A stretch of DNA of 64,000 nucleotides from NCBI RefSeq assembly GCF_014323725.1, contig NZ_JABVED010000003.1:124001-188000 (forward strand), in the 5' to 3' direction. Position numbers and translations under genes: made by a program. The notes under the pieces were generated by a model that saw nothing but the letters and a program-made list of their open reading frames with translations, was not told the origin of the DNA and ran no database searches. How positions within the stretch are numbered: the stretch's first letter is position 1; the number at the start of each line of letters is the position of its first letter. The stretch comes from Actinokineospora xionganensis. Its GTDB lineage: Bacteria; Actinomycetota; Actinomycetes; Mycobacteriales; Pseudonocardiaceae. Below, piece by piece: positions 2,699 to 63,775 of this stretch.

Positions 2699-2817
2699 CG
2701 AAGCTCCTCGTCGTCACAGGGGCGGCGACGCTGCCGCTGCCCCGAATCTAGTCCGACACGGCGGGTGAGCGTGTGATCACGTTGACGAGGACACACCTAC
2801 CCATGGTTGGCTTGGTC

Positions 2818-3483
2818 ATGGCCCAGACCCGCACCGAGGACTTCCGGCTGGCCGATGGCCGCGCGCTGCGCCTCACCTACGCCGAACCCGACCGAGTGAC
2901 CCGCGGCGGACTCGTCGTGCTGCACGAAGCCCGCGGCATCACCGAAGCCGTGCTCGCCATGGTCGCCGGGCTGGCCGCAGAGGGGTGGCTGATCGTGGTC
3001 CCGCACCTCTACGAAGGCGGGTCGGCGGAGGTCGACCACGCGGAGGCCCGCGACAAGGTCAGCGAACTGTCCGGGCAATCCGTGCTCGCCGCGACCGACA
3101 TCGCGTTCGCCTGGCTCGCCGAGCGCAAGGTGAACCTCGACCGGATCGGCGTCATCGGCTTCGAACTCGGCGGCGCGGTGGCCCTTGTCGTCGCCGCCAG
3201 CCGCACGATCGGCGCGGCGGTGACCGTCGCGGGCGGCGGGATCATCGAGCCGCTGTCGGCCGGTCTGCCCCCGTTGATCGAGGTGGCCGCGGACCTGCGG
3301 GTCCCGTGGCTGGGGCTCTACCGCACCGAGGGCGACGACATCACCGAGCAGCAGGTCGAGAAGCTGCGCGACGCGGCGGCGACCGCCTCGGTCGCCACCG
3401 ATGTGGTCCGCTTCGCCTTCGAGACCGGCGGTTTCGAGGCCTGGCAGCGCGCCCTCAACTGGTTCGACGCGCACCTGCGCTGA
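2818..3483 (+). CDS. dienelactone hydrolase-like protein lacking catalytic residues
   Basis: Alpha/beta-hydrolase fold protein of the dienelactone hydrolase family (about 221 residues from ATG 2818; ATG 2803 and GTG 2773 are in frame, but homology starts at MAQTRTEDF). The family nucleophile lies in G-x-C-x-G-G, but here the motif reads GFELGG, so the Cys/Ser is replaced by Glu. The usual C-terminal G-x-G-H-G-F reads ETGGFEAW, so the catalytic His also appears missing, while LHEARGI keeps the conserved Glu. The protein is therefore probably not a classical DLH; it may be a non-catalytic binder or use another mechanism. It is followed by a 10-bp hairpin and faces the CoA-transferase operon. 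Confidence 0.8.
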   Translation: MAQTRTEDFRLADGRALRLTYAEPDRVTRGGLVVLHEARGITEAVLAMVAGLAAEGWLIVVPHLYEGGSAEVDHAEARDKVSELSGQSVLAATDIAFAWLAERKVNLDRIGVIGFELGGAVALVVAASRTIGAAVTVAGGGIIEPLSAGLPPLIEVAADLRVPWLGLYRTEGDDITEQQVEKLRDAAATASVATDVVRFAFETGGFEAWQRALNWFDAHLR

Positions 3484-3515: not shown

Positions 3516-3575
3516 GAGTCCCACGTTCACAACATCGAGTTCACCGTTCAGAACGATGAGTTCGCAGTTCAGACC
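3516..3575. repeat. three degenerate 18-bp units, 21-bp period
   Basis: Three head-to-tail units (3516-3533, 3537-3554, 3558-3575) with 3-nt spacers ATC and GAT. They read GAGTCCCACGTTCACAAC, GAGTTCACCGTTCAGAAC and GAGTTCGCAGTTCAGACC. Each is a diverged form of GAGTCCAACGTTCAGAAC, the unit of the large repeat at 35040-35309, with the same 21-bp period. The last unit contains the stop codon of the convergent CoA-transferase subunit B gene (3569-3571). Confidence 0.75.
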
Positions 3576-4231
3576 GCGACGGCCATCTCGACGACGTCCG
3601 AGCCGACGGTGAGCTCGGGCTCGGTCTTCTCGCGCACCTCGTCGACACTCACGCCCGGCGCGGTCTCGCGCAGGACGAGGCCGTCGGCGGTGATGTCGAT
3701 GACCGCGAGGTCGGTGATGATCCGCTGCGCCACCCGAAGACCGGTGTAGGGCAGCGAGCACTCGTTGACGATCTTGTACGAGCCGTCCTTGGCGACGTGC
3801 TCCATCAGCACGACGACGTGCTTGGCGCCGTGCACCAGGTCCATCGCGCCGCCCATGCCCTTGACCATCTTGCCGGGGATCATCCAGTTGGCGATGTCAC
3901 CGACCTTGGACACCTGCATGGCGCCCAGGATCGCCGCGTCGACCTTGCCGCCGCGGATCATGCCGAACGACGCGGCGGAGTCGAAGAACGAGGCGCCCTT
4001 GCGCAGGGTGACCGTCTCCTTGCCCGCGTTGATCAGGTCGGGGCTCTCCTCGCCGTCGTACGGGTACGCGCCGACGCCGAGGATGCCGTTCTCCGACTGC
4101 AGCACGATCTCGACGTCGTCGGGCACGTAGTTCGGGACCAGGGTGGGAAGGCCGATGCCGAGGTTGACGTACGAGCCGTCCGACAGCTCGGCGGCCGCGC
4201 GGGCGGCCATCTGCTCACGGGTCAGTGCCAT
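3569..4231 (-). CDS. 3-oxoacid CoA-transferase, subunit B
   Basis: A 220-residue CoA-transferase family I beta subunit. It carries the hallmark active-site region SENGILGVG around residue 72, whose Glu forms the acyl-glutamyl/CoA thioester intermediate, and the N-terminal [11 protein letters not shown] loop. With subunit A it transfers CoA from succinyl-CoA (or acetyl-CoA) to a 3-oxoacid such as acetoacetate or 3-oxoadipate. The two subunits are adjacent with a 3-nt gap, subunit A first, as in scoAB, pcaIJ and atoDA operons. No aromatic ring-cleavage genes are nearby, so ketone body (acetoacetate) use is more likely than 3-oxoadipate, but this is inference. Confidence 0.9.
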
Positions 4232-33364: not shown

Positions 33365-33949
33365 ATGACCGACCGCGACGACACGGAGTCCGACCGCCCA
33401 TACCTGGGCGGTCCGGACGTGGCACCGGTGTTCGGCCGCCTGTTCGACCAGTACGCGGCCCCACTGCACCGCTACCTCGCCCGCCGCGTCGGGCCCGAGA
33501 TAGCGAACGACTTGGTCAGTGAGACCTTCCTGGTGGCGCTGCGGCAGCGCGATTCCTACGACGCCAGGCAGGCCGTGGTCCGCTCCTGGCTCTACGGCAT
33601 CGCGACCAACCTGATGCGCCGGTTCGTGCGCCAGGAGGAACGCGCGCTCAGAGCGGGAGTCCGGTCGTTGGGCCGCGAGGAAGGCCACGACGAGGGGGCG
33701 CGGGTGGTCGACCGGGTCGACGCCGAGGTCGCCGTGCGAGGACTGGCGGCCGCGGTGGCCGACCTTTCGCCCGGCGACCGGGATGTCCTGCTGCTCACGT
33801 CGTGGGCCGGCCTGGACTCCAACGAGGTCGCCGAGGCGCTCGGCATTCCCGTGGGCACAGTGCGTTCCAGGCTCCATCGGGTCCGCAAGTCGTTGCGTGC
33901 CAACGGTCATCGTCAGCACACCGCACGGGAGGAGGAAAGCCATGGGTGA
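33365..33949 (+). CDS. sigma-70 family (ECF) RNA polymerase sigma factor
   Basis: A 194-residue sigma factor with only regions 2 and 4. Region 2 runs FGRLFDQYAAPLHRYLARRVG to SWLYGIATNLMRRFVR, and region 4 runs LSPGDRDVLLLTSWAGLDSNEVAEALGIPVGTVRSRLHRVR with its helix-turn-helix. GTGAGGACG precedes ATG 33365. The stop overlaps the start of the downstream membrane-protein gene by 8 bp, so the pair is coupled. The partner probably modulates the sigma factor; the regulon is unknown. Confidence 0.92.
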   Translation: MTDRDDTESDRPYLGGPDVAPVFGRLFDQYAAPLHRYLARRVGPEIANDLVSETFLVALRQRDSYDARQAVVRSWLYGIATNLMRRFVRQEERALRAGVRSLGREEGHDEGARVVDRVDAEVAVRGLAAAVADLSPGDRDVLLLTSWAGLDSNEVAEALGIPVGTVRSRLHRVRKSLRANGHRQHTAREEESHG

Positions 33950-35042
33950 CCACGACAACCTGCGTGAGCTCTGGTCGGAGGACGAGTTGGACACCGCGCT
34001 GTCGCGGCTGAACTCCGCCGTGCGAACCGACGCGCACGCCCTCGCGAGGGCACGCGCCGAGCTGATGGCCGCCGCGGGCGGTCCCGAACAGGGGAGCACG
34101 ATGAGCACGCAGACATCCCGCCCGAAGCGGCGCTGGGTGCGATGGGCGGCCCCGGCGGCCGCCGTCGCCGCGGTGGTCGCCGGCTTGCTGGTGGCGCAAA
34201 CGGTGTCCTTCAACGGAAATCCGCCGGGAGCCGTCGCCGCCGCGGCCGAACTCAACGCCGCCGCGGACCGCGTCGGCGCGTCCGATCCGCCGGTCGGCCC
34301 CGGTCAGTACCGCTATGTCGGCACGCACGCGTGGTGGATGGGCATGGGTGCGCCGGAGGGGAAGATGTTGGCGGTCCTGGAAGAGAACCTGATCGAGCAG
34401 TGGGCGCCCGCCGAGTTCGACCAGGAATGGATGCAGCGGCGCCAGGTCACCGGCAACCACAAGGTCCTCGTCGGCACCGAGGAGGAAGTCAAGGCCTCGG
34501 GCATGTTGGGCGGGCGCAGGCCCGGTCAGGGCGAGAAACGCGCTCGCTGCGGTGACTTCTACGCCGCCGACGAGGGCCGGGAACCGTGCACCCGCGAAGG
34601 GGCGTGGCAGGTTCCGACGCCCGCGTTCCTCGCGAGCCTGCCCAAGGACCCGCGTCAGCTCTACGACCGGCTGCGTGCCGACACCGAGGGTCGGGGTCCG
34701 GGACCGGACGAGGAGATGCTCGTGTACGTGGCGGACGTGCTGCGGTCGGGCACCGTCCCGGCGGAGATCAGGGCCAACCTGTACCGGGTCCTCGCGATGG
34801 TGCCGAGCATCGAGATCACCGACCGCGCGGCGAACCTCGCGGGCAAGGTCGGCGTCGCGTTCGGCATCGGCGACGAAGAGGATCGCATGGAGATCATCAT
34901 CGACGTCGCGACCGGCCAGTTCATCGGCGAACGCAAGACCGCGGGCGACGACATCGACGGCATCGAGCCGGGCACCGTCATCAGCTTCACCTCAGTCGAA
35001 ACCGCCGTAGTCGACAAGATCGGCACACCCCCCACCTCTTAA
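33942..35042 (+). CDS. CU044_5270-type membrane protein, partner of the sigma factor
   Basis: A 366-residue protein starting at ATG 33942 after GGGAGGAGGAAAGCC. The cytoplasmic N-terminal segment has LRELWSEDELDTALSRL, one membrane helix lies at about 65-87 (WAAPAAAVAAVVAGLLVAQTV), and the extracytoplasmic domain is about 270 residues (VGPGQYRYVGTHAWWMG; FLASLPKDPRQLYDRLRADT). This architecture is repeatedly paired with ECF sigma genes in actinobacteria and is thought to act as anti-sigma factor or sensor. Its TAA stop (35040-35042) is the first base-paired triplet of the repeat element that follows. Confidence 0.82.
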   Translation: MGDHDNLRELWSEDELDTALSRLNSAVRTDAHALARARAELMAAAGGPEQGSTMSTQTSRPKRRWVRWAAPAAAVAAVVAGLLVAQTVSFNGNPPGAVAAAAELNAAADRVGASDPPVGPGQYRYVGTHAWWMGMGAPEGKMLAVLEENLIEQWAPAEFDQEWMQRRQVTGNHKVLVGTEEEVKASGMLGGRRPGQGEKRARCGDFYAADEGREPCTREGAWQVPTPAFLASLPKDPRQLYDRLRADTEGRGPGPDEEMLVYVADVLRSGTVPAEIRANLYRVLAMVPSIEITDRAANLAGKVGVAFGIGDEEDRMEIIIDVATGQFIGERKTAGDDIDGIEPGTVISFTSVETAVVDKIGTPPTS

Positions 35043-35309
35043 CCCATTCGCGAGTCCAACGTTCAGAACAATGAGTCCAACGTTCAGAACATCACACCTG
35101 ACGTTCGCTATCGCGCGAATGTAGGTCTCGATGTTCTGAACGTTGGACTCATTGTTCTGAACGTTGGACTCAGTGTTCTGAACGTTGGACTCAGTGTTCT
35201 GAACGTTGGACTCAGTGTTCTGAACGTTGGACTCAGTGTTCTGAACGTTGGACTCAGTGTTCTGAACGTTGGACTCATTGTTCTGAACGTTGGACTCGCG
35301 AATGGGTTA
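35040..35309. repeat. compound hairpin: eight tandem plus two inverted 18-bp units
   Basis: The right side holds eight copies of GTTCTGAACGTTGGACTC (35133, 35154, 35175, 35196, 35217, 35238, 35259, 35280) with 3-bp spacers ATT, AGT x5, ATT, giving a 21-bp period. The left side has two inverted copies (35052-35069, 35073-35090). The ends 35040-35090 and 35259-35309 are a perfect 51-bp inverted repeat. The 42 bp between the arms (35091-35132) folds further: 91-93 with 130-132, 96-99 with 123-126, and 101-108 with 115-122 (one G-T). The TAA stops of both convergent genes lie in the terminal bases. It probably acts as a bidirectional terminator; wider role unknown. Confidence 0.92.
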
Positions 35310-36203
35310 GGTGATGGGGCGGATGCGGGCGGAGTCGGCGGCTACGAGGGCGGCGTCGCCGGATTCCGTTGTCACGGCGACCGCGCGGGACGAGGGGGAC
35401 CAGACGATGCCGTCGGGGCTGACCGGGGCGGGGAGGTCGGCGGAGCGGAGGAAGCGGCCGTTCTCGGTCTGGTGGAACGAGACCTTGGTGCCGTCGACGA
35501 CCGCGATGCGCCTGCCGTCCGGCGCGAGCCGGGCCTGGGAACCGGTGGGCAGCGACGGGACCAGCGGCTCCCACTCCTCACCGCCGACCTTGTAGCGCAC
35601 GATCCGCGCCTCGTCGGCGGTGTACTCGGTGGCGACCAGGCGCATCGAGTCGGGAAGCCAGCGCAGGTCGCGCCTGCCCGCGTCGGCGGGTTCGGGCGAG
35701 ATCAGCCGGACGTGGTCGTCCTCGGTGACCGGCATCGTGTCGACCAGCACGAGCTTGCGCGGCAGCCGGATCGCGATGTAGCGGCTGTTCGGGCTGACCG
35801 CCGCCTCCAGGACCGCGCCGCCTCGGTCGTAGACGGCCTGTTCCTCGCCGACCAGCACGTTGCGGATGACCACGGTGAACAGCAGTCGGTGCCGCCGGTT
35901 GGCGCGGTAGACGATGCGGCCGGGCAGCACGCCGAGCAACTCGGTGTCGTAGTCGGCCGAGCCGAGCAGCGGGGCCATGCCCGCGCCGACCCTCAGCAGC
36001 GACAGCCGGGCCGGTTTCCCATGCTCGACAACGATTTTCCGGTCGCCGGGCAAGTACTTCGCGGCGCGCAGATCGGTCACCGTCTCCAGGTTCCGGCGCA
36101 CGCCTTTGGCATCGATCTCGACCAGGCGTGCCTGGTCGCCATCGGTCACCGAGATCAGTAACCGTTCGCGCTCGTCGACATCGAGCACCCGCATCCCCGA
36201 CAT
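35307..36203 (-). CDS. beta-propeller (WD40/TolB-like) protein
   Basis: A 298-residue cytoplasmic protein made of repeated four-stranded blades, e.g. [61 protein letters not shown] and [16 protein letters not shown]. These resemble TolB/WD40-type propellers. No enzymatic motif or signal peptide, so protein binding is the likely role. ATG 36203 follows GGGTGGAGATC; ATG 36194 is in frame. The stop codon is supplied by the end of the repeat element. Confidence 0.75.
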
Positions 36204-36228
36204 GATCTCCACCCTGTCACAACACAGG

Positions 36229-61053: not shown

Positions 61054-62808
61054 ATGGCCGAGCCGAGACTGGTCGCCGGGCGCTACGCACTACTTGGGGA
61101 ACTGGGCCGCGGCGGCATGGGTGTCGTCTGGCTCGCTGAGGATCGGGTCATCGGCAGGCGGGTCGCGCTCAAGGAGCTGCCGTTCCCGCCCGGCCACGAC
61201 CCCGCGGTCTTCCAGGAACGTGTCCTGCGCGAGGCGCGGACGGCGGGCGGGCTCAACGACCCCGCGATCGTCACCGTGTACGACGTGTCGTTCGACCAGG
61301 GCTTCGCCTACCTGGTCATGGAACTGGTCCAGGCCCCTACGCTCGCTGACCTCATCGCCGCGGGCCCGCTGGCCGAGGCCAGGGTCGTGACGATCGCCCG
61401 CCAGGTGCTCGGCGCGCTGAAGAGCGCGCACGACGCGGGGATCGTGCACCGCGACGTCAAGCCGAGCAACATCATGGTGCTGCCCGGCGACCGGGTGAAG
61501 CTCGCCGACTTCGGCATCGCCCGCGGCGTCGACGACCCGAGCCTCACCGCGACCGGCGGCATCATGGGCTCCCCGGGCTACATGGCGCCGGAGCTGTTCG
61601 CCGGGGCGCAGCCCGCGCCCGCGTCCGACCTGTGGTCGCTCGGCGCGACCCTCTTCCACGCGGTCGAGGGCAAAGCGCCGTTCACGCGGACCACCACGGC
61701 CGCCACCATGCACGCCATCCTCACCGAGCGTCCCCAGCCCAGCCGCTGCGGCGAGCCCCTCAGCTCCCTGCTCAACGGCCTGTTGAGCCAGGACCCGGCG
61801 CAGCGGCTCACCGGCACCAGGGCCGCCGCTCTGCTCGGCGCGCCCGCGGACACGGACGCGACCGTCACGTTCGCGCCGGTCGCCGCCCCGGACGGCTCCA
61901 CCGAACTTGTCGCCCCGGTCGCCGAGTCCACCGAACTCGTCGCAGGCCCCACCATGGCGGTCGTCGCCCCGCGGCGCTCGACCCGCGAGAACGTGATGGA
62001 CACTGTGGCGCCCGTGGCCCCCGCGGCCCCGGCGTGGGTGAGCGACGACCCGTGGGACGAGAAGAAGGGCGCCAGCCGCAAGGTGCCCGCGCTCCTGGCG
62101 GGGGCGGCGGCGGTCGTCGTCGCCGCGCTGGTGGCGGTCTTCGTGCTCGTCCCCGGGGATGAGGGCACCCCGACGGCGATGCCGGTCGTGGACAAGCAGA
62201 CCCAGTCGTCGACCCCGCCCGCCACGCTGACGGAGACCCCGACGTCCTCTTCCGGCGCGCCCAGTTCCTCCACCGCGCCGCCGAGCAGCAGCGAATCAGG
62301 CGCACCGTCTTCGGGGCCCGCGGCTTCCGGCTCGGTCAAGCCCACGACGGCTTCGCCGGGCCAGCCCGTCCCGCCCAAGCCGACCACGGGGGTCTCGGCG
62401 GGCCCCACGACCACGCCGCCGCCGACGTGGACGCGCATCACGGTCACCCGCTACAACCACCCGACCGGCTGGCACGTCCTCACCACCCCGGCCTACCCCG
62501 CGCCCGCCGGCTACAGTCGCGAATTCCCCCTCGGCGCGCTGTCCGCGAAGCCGACGGCAGGCACCAAGAAGCTGTACTCCTGCAAGCAGAACGCCTCGGA
62601 GGACCACTTCACGTCGGCCGACCAGAGCGGCGGCTGCGAGGGCCACAAGGTGATCGGCCTGCTCGGCTACATCTTCACCGCGCCCCCGGAGGGCGCGAAG
62701 TCGGCCTCGCTGTACCGCTGCACGTACAGCGGCGGCCACTTCGACTCGATCCACTCCGACTGCGAGGGCTACAAGCAGGAATTCCGACTCGGCTACCTGC
62801 TGATCTGA
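61054..62808 (+). CDS. membrane serine/threonine protein kinase with extracytoplasmic DUF5648-like repeats
   Basis: A 584-residue Hanks-type kinase. G-loop LGRGGMGVVWLAED, Lys40 in RVALKELPF, HRDVKPSN, ADFGIARG and GSPGYMAPE are all present, so the kinase is probably active. One membrane helix lies at about 345-367 (VPALLAGAAAVVVAALVAVFVL). A Ser/Thr/Pro-rich stalk follows, and the outer domain has three tandem motifs: YNHPTGWHVLTT, LYSCKQNASEDHFTSADQ and LYRCTYSGGHFDSIHSD, each ending in E-F-x-LG or LGY, like DUF5648. The outer repeats may bind a wall-related ligand. AGGGGGAACTC precedes the ATG. Confidence 0.92.
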   Translation: MAEPRLVAGRYALLGELGRGGMGVVWLAEDRVIGRRVALKELPFPPGHDPAVFQERVLREARTAGGLNDPAIVTVYDVSFDQGFAYLVMELVQAPTLADLIAAGPLAEARVVTIARQVLGALKSAHDAGIVHRDVKPSNIMVLPGDRVKLADFGIARGVDDPSLTATGGIMGSPGYMAPELFAGAQPAPASDLWSLGATLFHAVEGKAPFTRTTTAATMHAILTERPQPSRCGEPLSSLLNGLLSQDPAQRLTGTRAAALLGAPADTDATVTFAPVAAPDGSTELVAPVAESTELVAGPTMAVVAPRRSTRENVMDTVAPVAPAAPAWVSDDPWDEKKGASRKVPALLAGAAAVVVAALVAVFVLVPGDEGTPTAMPVVDKQTQSSTPPATLTETPTSSSGAPSSSTAPPSSSESGAPSSGPAASGSVKPTTASPGQPVPPKPTTGVSAGPTTTPPPTWTRITVTRYNHPTGWHVLTTPAYPAPAGYSREFPLGALSAKPTAGTKKLYSCKQNASEDHFTSADQSGGCEGHKVIGLLGYIFTAPPEGAKSASLYRCTYSGGHFDSIHSDCEGYKQEFRLGYLLI

Positions 62809-62959: not shown

Positions 62960-63775
62960 CCGCTGGGGGCCTGGTACGGGCTCCGGCAGCTCGACCGGCG
63001 GTGCGGGCTCTTCAACGGGCGGTGCGGGCTCTTCAACGGGCGGTGCGGGTTCCTCAACGGGCGGTGCGGGTTCCTCGACCGGCGGTGCGGGTTCCTCAAC
63101 GGGCGGTGCGGGTTCCTCGACCGGCGGTGCGGGTTCCTCAACGGGCGGTGCGGGTTCCTCGACCGGCGGTGCGGGTTCCTCAACGGGCGGTGCGGGCTCT
63201 TCAACCGGGGGTGCGGGTTCCTCGACCGGCGGTGCGGGCTCTTCAACCGGGGGTGCGGGTTCCTCGACCGGCGGTGCGGGCTCTTCAACCGGCGGTGCGG
63301 GCTCCTCGACCGGCGGCGCAGGCGGCTCCTCCGGCGGAGCCTCGTCCTTCACGCACTCGCCCTCGGTCAACTTGTCGAGCGCCTTGGCTGCGCCCTCGGC
63401 CTCGGCGCCCACGGCGGCGGCATTGGCCTCAGCCGAGGTCACCAACGCGATCGCACTGTACAAATGGGACAGTAGCTTCGCGGTGGCCTCGTGACAGGAG
63501 TCGAGCTCCACGCCCTCGCCCGGTGGCACCTCCGGCAGGCACTCGTCGGTCTGCAGCGTGGTCACGAGAGTCCGGAACGACGTGACGAGGTCTGTGGTCG
63601 TCGCGAGATCCGGCGTCTCGGCCTGCGCTTCTTCACTCAGCGCGGCCAGGTTGGCCTTCAAGCTGTCGATCGATTCACTGCACGTCTCGGTTGGTTCAGC
63701 GGCGGCCGACGGCACGCCGAGGCCCACCAGACCGGTGGCAGCGGCGGCCAAACCAATGGCCAATTTCCTGAACAT
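62954..63775 (-). CDS. secreted PAPPVEE-repeat protein
   Basis: A 273-residue protein. The signal peptide (LAIGLAAAATGLVGLGVPSAAA) is followed by an all-helical domain of about 115 residues with four cysteines (ETCSES, DECLPE, DSCHEA, GECVKD), then about 16 copies of the heptad PAPPVEE and a short PVPGPQRP end. No LPXTG or membrane tail, so it is released or wall-associated through its stalk. ATG 63775 is preferred over GTG 63784 because GGGGAAG lies about 10 nt upstream. Function unknown. Confidence 0.83.
   Translation of the reverse strand: MFRKLAIGLAAAATGLVGLGVPSAAAEPTETCSESIDSLKANLAALSEEAQAETPDLATTTDLVTSFRTLVTTLQTDECLPEVPPGEGVELDSCHEATAKLLSHLYSAIALVTSAEANAAAVGAEAEGAAKALDKLTEGECVKDEAPPEEPPAPPVEEPAPPVEEPAPPVEEPAPPVEEPAPPVEEPAPPVEEPAPPVEEPAPPVEEPAPPVEEPAPPVEEPAPPVEEPAPPVEEPAPPVEEPAPPVEEPAPPVEEPAPPVELPEPVPGPQRP
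62990..63330. repeat. 21-bp coding repeat (PAPPVEE), about 16 copies
   Basis: Direct repeats of 21 bp encode PAPPVEE on the minus strand. On the plus strand the units alternate between a ...TCAACGGGC and a ...TCGACCGGC version through copies 4-10, giving a 42-bp higher-order period, which implies duplication of two-unit blocks. Confidence 0.9.

Follow-up and report, generated by a model that had tools for sequence, protein, structure and literature searches.

The closest described counterparts of the system reported here are the REP and REPIN sequences, dispersed palindromes that lie mostly 3' of genes, together with the RAYT genes, which stand between inverted repeats. In the excerpts of three reports (PMC2817692, PMC3116915, PMC3733652), each RAYT is single-copy and its phylogeny is largely congruent with that of the species. 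Few bacterial repeats are as well known as REP-type palindromes, and RAYTs and TIRYTs are the sole enzymes tied to them in the literature compared. Two other described proteins are relevant. I-Bth0305I is phage-derived and is reported to dimerize on a target of nearly 60 bp (excerpt of PMC3943268), and AbiEi binds 23-bp inverted repeats (excerpt of PMC7319586).

The window, by which we mean the whole 64,000-nucleotide stretch of Actinokineospora xionganensis DNA analyzed here, has as its strongest inverted repeat (scan with arms up to about 320 bases apart) the hairpin element described in Table 1. Direct reading of the sequence bore out every anatomical detail checked in the original prediction: two 18-bp units face eight tandem ones (35133-35297) with a period of 21 bp, all ten units being identical, and the outer 51 bp are exact reverse complements. 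The right-arm spacers run ATT, five times AGT, and ATT, as had been claimed. The terminal bases of the element are the stop codons of two convergent genes, again as predicted: the TAA at 35040-35042 closes the plus-strand gene, and the TTA at 35307-35309 is the TAA of the minus-strand gene. Spacers of 3 bp and inverted arms agree with the statement that this is not a CRISPR. Folded as RNA, the element reaches -162.1 kcal/mol versus -81.0 +/- 4.9 in 200 shuffles (z -16.6). An Rfam search of the window returned three tRNAs and an SRP RNA and nothing else.

Table 1. The hairpin element, its flanking genes, and a diverged half-element in the window.
Feature	Positions	Strand	Remarks
Diverged half-element, three units in one orientation, 21-bp period	3516..3575	+	Between convergent genes 2803-3483 (+) and 3569-4231 (-)
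Flanking gene, 366 aa	33942..35042	+	Stop is left end of element; no Pfam match at E 0.001
Whole hairpin element, 2+8 units	35040..35309	.	270 bp; ends are two TAA stops
Left outer stem TAACCCATTCGC, locus-specific	35040..35051	+	Includes stop codon of gene 33942-35042
Left arm, two GAGTCCAACGTTCAGAAC units, spacer AAT	35052..35090	+	Units at 35052-35069 and 35073-35090
42-bp apex, degenerate third unit pair closing the hairpin	35091..35132	.	By comparison with other elements
Right-arm units 1-2, spacer ATT	35133..35171	-	Complementary to left arm
Right-arm units 3-7	35175..35276	-	All spacers from unit 2 to unit 7 are AGT
Right-arm unit 8, preceded by spacer ATT	35280..35297	-	
Right outer stem GCGAATGGGTTA	35298..35309	-	Includes stop codon of gene 35307-36212
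Flanking gene, 301 aa	35307..36212	-	Stop is right end of element; named propeller gene in the original prediction; no Pfam match at E 0.001

Growth of the right arm by slippage from a 2+2 hairpin, the history originally proposed, is plausible. Since the five inner spacers are AGT, the added units are not simple copies of the ATT-joined pair. AGT reads ACT in unit orientation, and ACT occurs in five of the 71 unit-to-unit spacers counted at other loci. Because ACT spacers are present in other elements, conversion from one of them is as possible as slippage; the added units would descend either from one unit that changed its spacer and was then amplified or from ACT-type units of another element. 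The element contains no N and is the most asymmetric N-free copy seen in the host genome. Its count of eight units is uncertain because it rests on a 70-contig draft assembly in which further members of the family contain Ns or lie at contig ends.

The unit is dispersed in the genome to which the window belongs (G000; 6.8 Mb, 70 contigs). With up to three mismatches, the 18-mer is matched 88 times forward and 92 times reverse, compared with 0 for a reversed-pattern control; with up to two mismatches, it is matched 147 times. Uniqueness of the unit to this locus, which the original prediction gave as a ground for its own rejection, is ruled out by these 180 matches. BLAST of the element against G000 gave 104 pieces at about 40 places, and 39 loci, the target included, were retrieved. 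On contig C23 (531 kb), inspected in full, 13 of 17 array groups were judged to be elements, eight of them among the BLAST places; extrapolation from this yield suggests that G000 may hold about 65 elements, and we place the number at some 40 to 65. The common form has 2+2 units around a degenerate third unit pair, and 3+3, 4+4, and one-sided forms also occur. In G001, the single-contig genome of a close congener, in-phase arrays reach seven units. We read the target as a non-autonomous member of this dispersed hairpin family, in which tandem 21-bp units form two opposed arms on either side of a degenerate third unit. The exact double-unit pattern had 0 matches in a genome-contig collection that may omit the host and near genomes, and the unit sequence, searched as a text string, had no match in the open-access literature.

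Several other repeat features were seen in the host genome. At loci L043, L046, and L053 (contigs C4, C6, and C12), the right arm and flank are present twice, the second time after a single N, which may be a scaffolding leftover, and two contigs end inside an element (L049 and L056). Hairpin repeats may account for assembly breaks in such genomes. Within the window, the half-element at 3516-3575, which belongs to the same family as the target, has no second arm and is missing in G001, where 8 bp separate the aligned flanks. A 21-bp tandem repeat of 15.6 copies (CTCAACCGGCGGTGCGGGTTC) at 62990-63316, after gene 61054-62808, is unlike the hairpin unit in sequence and is possibly coding.

Elements lie at the 3' ends of genes, as called by a codon-usage caller made for this analysis rather than taken from an annotation. 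The 39 loci hold 41 unit clusters, 39 of which have a called gene on both sides; a single four-mismatch unit inside a gene (L057:5666), taken as a chance match, and the two clusters without a gene on one side were left out of the context count. The remaining 38 clusters comprised 22 in convergent, 16 in tandem, and 0 in divergent contexts, compared with 36, 131, and 27, respectively, for the 194 neighboring gene pairs of the same loci, element-bearing pairs included. In 15 of the 16 tandem clusters, no more than 17 bp separate the element from the stop of the gene before it; only L039, a one-sided copy distant from called genes, departs from this. Stop codons within 60 bp of a cluster edge numbered 55, at a median of 11 bp. 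TAA accounted for 26 of these 55 versus 18 of 159 other stops (p 9e-8), and CCC directly followed the stop in 39 of 55 versus 9 of 159. The genome-wide search thus agrees with the expectation of many copies, mostly between convergent 3' ends and variable in unit number. Their position suggests that the hairpins may end transcription. The gene-end position fits the "terminator-like" label given to the element earlier, but a consensus scan for intrinsic terminators (loop of 3-8, then a T run) detected no site at the target.

The two arms were compared in 28 two-sided elements out of the 39 loci. They agree at 95% of positions within one element versus 88% between different elements. Among doubly changed cells, 46 of 51 still pair, whereas arm shuffles gave a mean of 11 and a maximum of 23, and none of 2000 reached 46. 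The stems are maintained by compensatory change. CGC/GCG, the three bases adjoining the units, are fixed in 28/28 elements. Farther outward, complementarity at 3-6 nt was 0.71 for own arms versus 0.40 for cross arms; this outer complementarity is locus-specific, and the stem therefore extends into the local flank.

The original prediction saw no transposase in the element. This held for Y1 transposases, with Y1_Tnp (PF01797) absent from assembled G000 (the control search was positive in five of 14 known genomes), but a cognate nuclease gene of 300 aa lies in the loop of another element, L072 (G000:C67, about 284573-285656). In Pfam, the encoded protein scored below the family cut-off for MTES_1575 (E 2.9e-6) and above that for DUF559 (E 2.7e-5), and PADLOC AbiEi profiles matched its N-terminal part (E 5.9e-5, and 1.3e-12 for a Saccharothrix relative). 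Since the sequence had no match among solved structures at E 0.1, folds were compared instead. An AlphaFold2 model of the Saccharothrix relative L124 (mean pLDDT 95, pTM 0.90) was built with 59 aligned sequences, obtained from 80 proteins by omitting partial matches and the internal-stop rows L144, L163, and L189 and thinning others. Foldseek ranked AbiEi-type structures first (1zel, E 1.5e-5; 6y8q, E 3.2e-5), with the I-Bth0305I catalytic domain (3r3p) at rank 7 (E 0.02, probability 1.0; TM 0.72 on target, rmsd 2.6). Judging from this model, the protein looks like an AbiEi-like DNA-binding domain followed by an EDxHD homing-endonuclease-like (DUF559/Vsr) catalytic domain. E199 is invariant among the 59 sequences, and D232, E243, H250, D257, and R260 are conserved in at least 90%; these are the putative catalytic residues. 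The nuclease is under purifying selection (dN/dS 0.08 to 0.25 in seven pairs). A phage or plasmid origin was rejected: tblastn with the nuclease found no match in 72,556 plasmid or 50,697 phage records.

Distribution of the repeats was compared with that of the nuclease. Among 16 genomes of the genus, matches to the architecture pattern numbered 31 in G000 and 65 in G001 (overlapping ones counted) and 0 in the 14 others (control, 0), and the nuclease profile at E 1e-20 detected the gene in G000 and G001 only. Fourteen of 25 Saccharothrix genomes had at least seven units (up to two mismatches), and these 14 also encode a close nuclease, with E below 1e-130. The 25 genomes form group g7, assigned to Saccharothrix because seven of eight loci compared had stretches identical to named Saccharothrix records. 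Among the remaining 11 genomes, G079 lacks this unit but encodes a nuclease that matches at 5.6e-119; only distant homologs were detected in three (1e-63 to 1e-30), and no homolog in seven. Taking the 41 genomes together, a close nuclease is present in 16/16 element-bearing genomes and 1/25 others, with a Fisher p of 1.6e-10 that ignores relatedness and is inflated by it. G079, with a close nuclease and no unit of this type, counts against the pairing of repeat and nuclease. Across 390 genomes of the family, all 19 with at least five units have the nuclease; some nuclease match at E 1e-20 was found in 284 of the 390, many with other units.

Nuclease relatives lie between genome-specific arrays in G000, G001, and five Saccharothrix genomes. 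A wider set comprised the best 80 of 81 loci, from some 17 genera; all but a single Geodermatophilus locus belong to Pseudonocardiaceae or to actinomycete MAGs with loose names. In-phase G[AT]GT pairs around the nuclease gene, counted at 79 of the 80 loci (one was dropped for too little flank), numbered 178 and 222 at periods of 21 and 22, compared with 2.8 and 2.2 in the control sets; the next period, 20, had 30. Inverted 21/22-bp arrays flanked the nuclease on both sides at 62 of 79 loci versus 0 of 312 control pairs, and 17 of the 79 loci had no detected in-phase arrays on both sides. An inverted-repeat score that makes no use of the unit was applied to 77 of the 80 loci (L198 and loci with under 420 bp of flank were omitted); it exceeded all 308 controls at 72 loci and did not exceed the best control at five. 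One of the two nuclease copies of G042 is without clear arrays on one side.

The unit sequence varies between genomes. The unit of Pseudonocardia eucalypti recurs in that genome 209 times when three mismatches are allowed (control, 1); none of seven other genomes contains it more than once. For the 66 loci with at least four units, distances between proteins and between units were correlated (rho 0.34, reached in 0 of 2000 permutations), a Mantel figure that relatedness inflates. The nuclease is usually present once per genome, at one ancestral place. The same gene, which we take to be a glutamylcyclotransferase, adjoins it in 62 of 82 loci, and a second neighbor, presumably an amidohydrolase, is found in 50 of 82; these two are the usual neighbors, and no adjacent AbiEii toxin gene was noticed at the loci examined. 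Four genomes, of Labedaea rhizosphaerae, Amycolatopsis suaedae, Haloechinothrix halophila, and Pseudonocardia thermophila, carry two nucleases, each between arrays of a different unit (locus pairs L120/L126, L142/L157, L155/L189, and L181/L193).

Beyond the family, 256 of 394 genomes of the class gave a match at E 1e-15, although at least two of these genomes do fall within the family. Matches were often several per genome, of which no more than six were scored. Arrays of 21/22-bp G[AT]GT units were found at 2 of 28 such loci; the inverted-repeat score, applied to 24 of the 28, exceeded all 96 control pairs at 21, with other motifs. Among distant homologs, L198 (Geodermatophilus obscurus) and L341 are flanked on either side by whole GATCATGG-type hairpins, not by half-arms. 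In order-mates forming group g47, the AbiEi-nuclease homologs L319, L321, L329, L333, and L336 lie between GCGAGCGTGCG-type repeats that may make up a large family in the g47 genus, and some g47 genomes have at least six scored AbiEi-nuclease matches.

Elements and nuclease have both turned over between G000 and G001. Six element sites are common to C23 and G001. The unit type agrees fully or nearly so at two of them and differs at the other four, including the target, the G001 type at differing sites being GAGTCGCCCC… Seven C23 elements are missing in G001. Their empty sites comprise three with 6-8 bp between aligned flanks, one of 40 bp with a plain hairpin, and three with 226-900 bp of other sequence. 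The four compact sites gave no target-site duplication beyond chance (shared direct words of 4 to 7 bp; random mean, 5.6), and the G000 element at C23:471592 is not surrounded by the plain hairpin that G001 has there. On G001:C1, a tandem array with a unit containing GGCGCCCAAAGCCCACCAAGGCC spans the interval from about 750 to 440 bp to the left of the element shared at 2312015.

The G000 and G001 nucleases share 59% identity and are sister lineages (support 100/96) in a tree of 75 rows, made up of 73 named-collection proteins plus these two. The genes next to them differ by dS 0.19 and 0.20, and the nucleases by dS 1.5 (dN 0.35). This disparity indicates in-place replacement of one allele or of both, and dS rules out vertical divergence as the explanation for the 59% identity. 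Of the 14 congeners without the nuclease, five keep both neighbors 0-57 bp apart (three of them with a plain hairpin), three have both neighbors 178-710 bp apart, and six have a left neighbor that is different or not called.

The reading that we prefer, with a probability of about 0.68, is a repeat-plus-nuclease system resembling REPIN/RAYT, in which a homing-type endonuclease takes the role of the HUH transposase and would bind and spread the repeats. It draws on the dispersal of the repeats at gene 3' ends, the co-variation of their arms, the joint occurrence of repeats and nuclease, the placement of nuclease genes between inverted arrays across the family, and the exchange in place of both nuclease alleles and unit types. 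The AbiEi-like domain would read the unit, which would accord with the binding of AbiEi to 23-bp inverted repeats, a length close to 21/22 bp. The EDxHD-like domain, of a fold with which homing enzymes cut DNA, may then cleave units, hairpins, or gene-end spacers, and repair would copy an element into the break or convert an existing hairpin; such copying would both spread the family and homogenize it. We propose that the hairpins are tolerated owing to their gene-end location and may serve there as substitutes for terminators. Counting against this reading are the lack of target-site duplications beyond chance at the four compact empty sites, genome G079, the 17 of 79 loci without detected two-sided arrays, the five of 77 loci that do not exceed the best control, the G042 copy without clear arrays on one side, the negative intrinsic-terminator scan at the target, and the match of the outer stem to locus-specific flanks.

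Other explanations were weighed against the same data. The hairpins might be bidirectional terminators and nothing more, homogenized by ordinary gene conversion, with the nuclease between two of them by chance. Copies just past stop codons (55 stops within 60 bp, median 11 bp), plain hairpins at some orthologous sites in relatives, and the compensatory change that keeps the stems all suit such an account, but it does not predict the co-occurrence of repeat and nuclease, the 62 of 79 nuclease loci between inverted arrays, or a unit that tracks the protein. Moreover, terminators need no common 18-bp sequence, and the intrinsic-terminator scan was negative at the target. We consider this account unlikely. 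It is somewhat less probable still that the protein is an AbiEi-type regulator or a defense nuclease for which the arrays are operators or self-recognition marks rather than cargo. Its N-terminal part does match PADLOC AbiEi profiles, and paired inverted repeats of 23 bp, situated in the antitoxin promoter itself, are what AbiEi antitoxins bind (excerpt of PMC7319586); however, the many copies are at gene 3' ends, with 0 of 38 clusters in a divergent (promoter) spacer, arrays flank both sides of the gene, and the unit type differs at distant sites between two species with differing nuclease alleles.

The anatomy of gene-end palindromes with a nuclease gene between two inverted repeats is also that of REP/REPIN sequences moved by a RAYT, an IS200/IS605-type Y1 transposase (excerpt of PMC2817692). 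With no Y1_Tnp match in assembled G000, in a search whose control was positive in five of 14 known genomes, and an enzyme fold that is AbiEi-like plus EDxHD-like, this identification is scarcely credible. A narrower doubt concerns the 2+8 array itself, which could be partly an assembly product, that is, an ordinary 2+2 element whose right arm was joined wrongly or miscounted. The 70-contig draft, the N with duplicated arm at three loci, and the two contig ends inside elements lend this some substance, whereas the target contains no N and in-phase arrays of up to seven units occur in single-contig G001; we think it improbable.

The repeat-plus-nuclease reading can be extended, at odds that we put a little short of even, to a class of selfish or domesticated two-part elements of actinobacteria. 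An AbiEi-EDxHD nuclease and its own 21/22-bp unit would co-evolve, the nuclease would write hairpins at gene ends, a new allele would overwrite the hairpins of its predecessor, and distant homologs in other families (g47) would do likewise with their own palindromes. The 80 loci from some 17 genera constitute a natural series of matched nuclease-repeat pairs that serve questions of protein-site co-evolution, colonization of gene ends, and the persistence of a mostly single-site nuclease. The open-access literature gave no account linking a DUF559/AbiEi-type nuclease, or its 300-aa architecture, to dispersed repeats.

Compared with known systems, the present one differs from classical IS elements and MITEs in showing no target-site duplication beyond chance at four compact empty sites. 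The N-terminal part of the nuclease resembles AbiEi antitoxins (S. agalactiae AbiEi and M. tuberculosis Rv2827c) in fold (1zel, 6y8q) and in its PADLOC profiles, but here a nuclease-like domain is attached. DUF559/MTES_1575/Vsr-like nucleases (PF04480, PF18741, NCBIfam) give weak profile matches to the C-terminal part only. With I-Bth0305I the modeled protein appears to share a C-terminal Vsr/EDxHD-like catalytic fold and conserved acidic and His residues, whereas the nuclease here is chromosomal, has an AbiEi-like part fused to it, and lies between repeat arrays. The likeness to REPIN/RAYT systems extends further: the nuclease gene is likewise flanked by two inverted repeat copies and is usually present once per genome at one ancestral place, and the repeat is likewise high-copy, extragenic, and downstream of genes in G000. 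Unlike in those systems, the enzyme is not Y1/HUH, the repeats have no GTAG/CGTC tag (the foot is CGC|GAGTC in G000, and unit cores are GAGT or GTGT elsewhere), the arms are tandem arrays of 21/22-bp units instead of one short palindrome, and the hosts are Pseudonocardiaceae and other Actinomycetes. As the defining Y1 enzyme is absent from assembled G000, the system is not a member of the REPIN/RAYT group. An unrelated homing-endonuclease-like protein appears to have reached a REP-like arrangement in another bacterial class, with the unit changing between species beside the protein, and its recurrence with different repeats in many relatives suggests an unrecognized kind of repeat-and-enzyme system.
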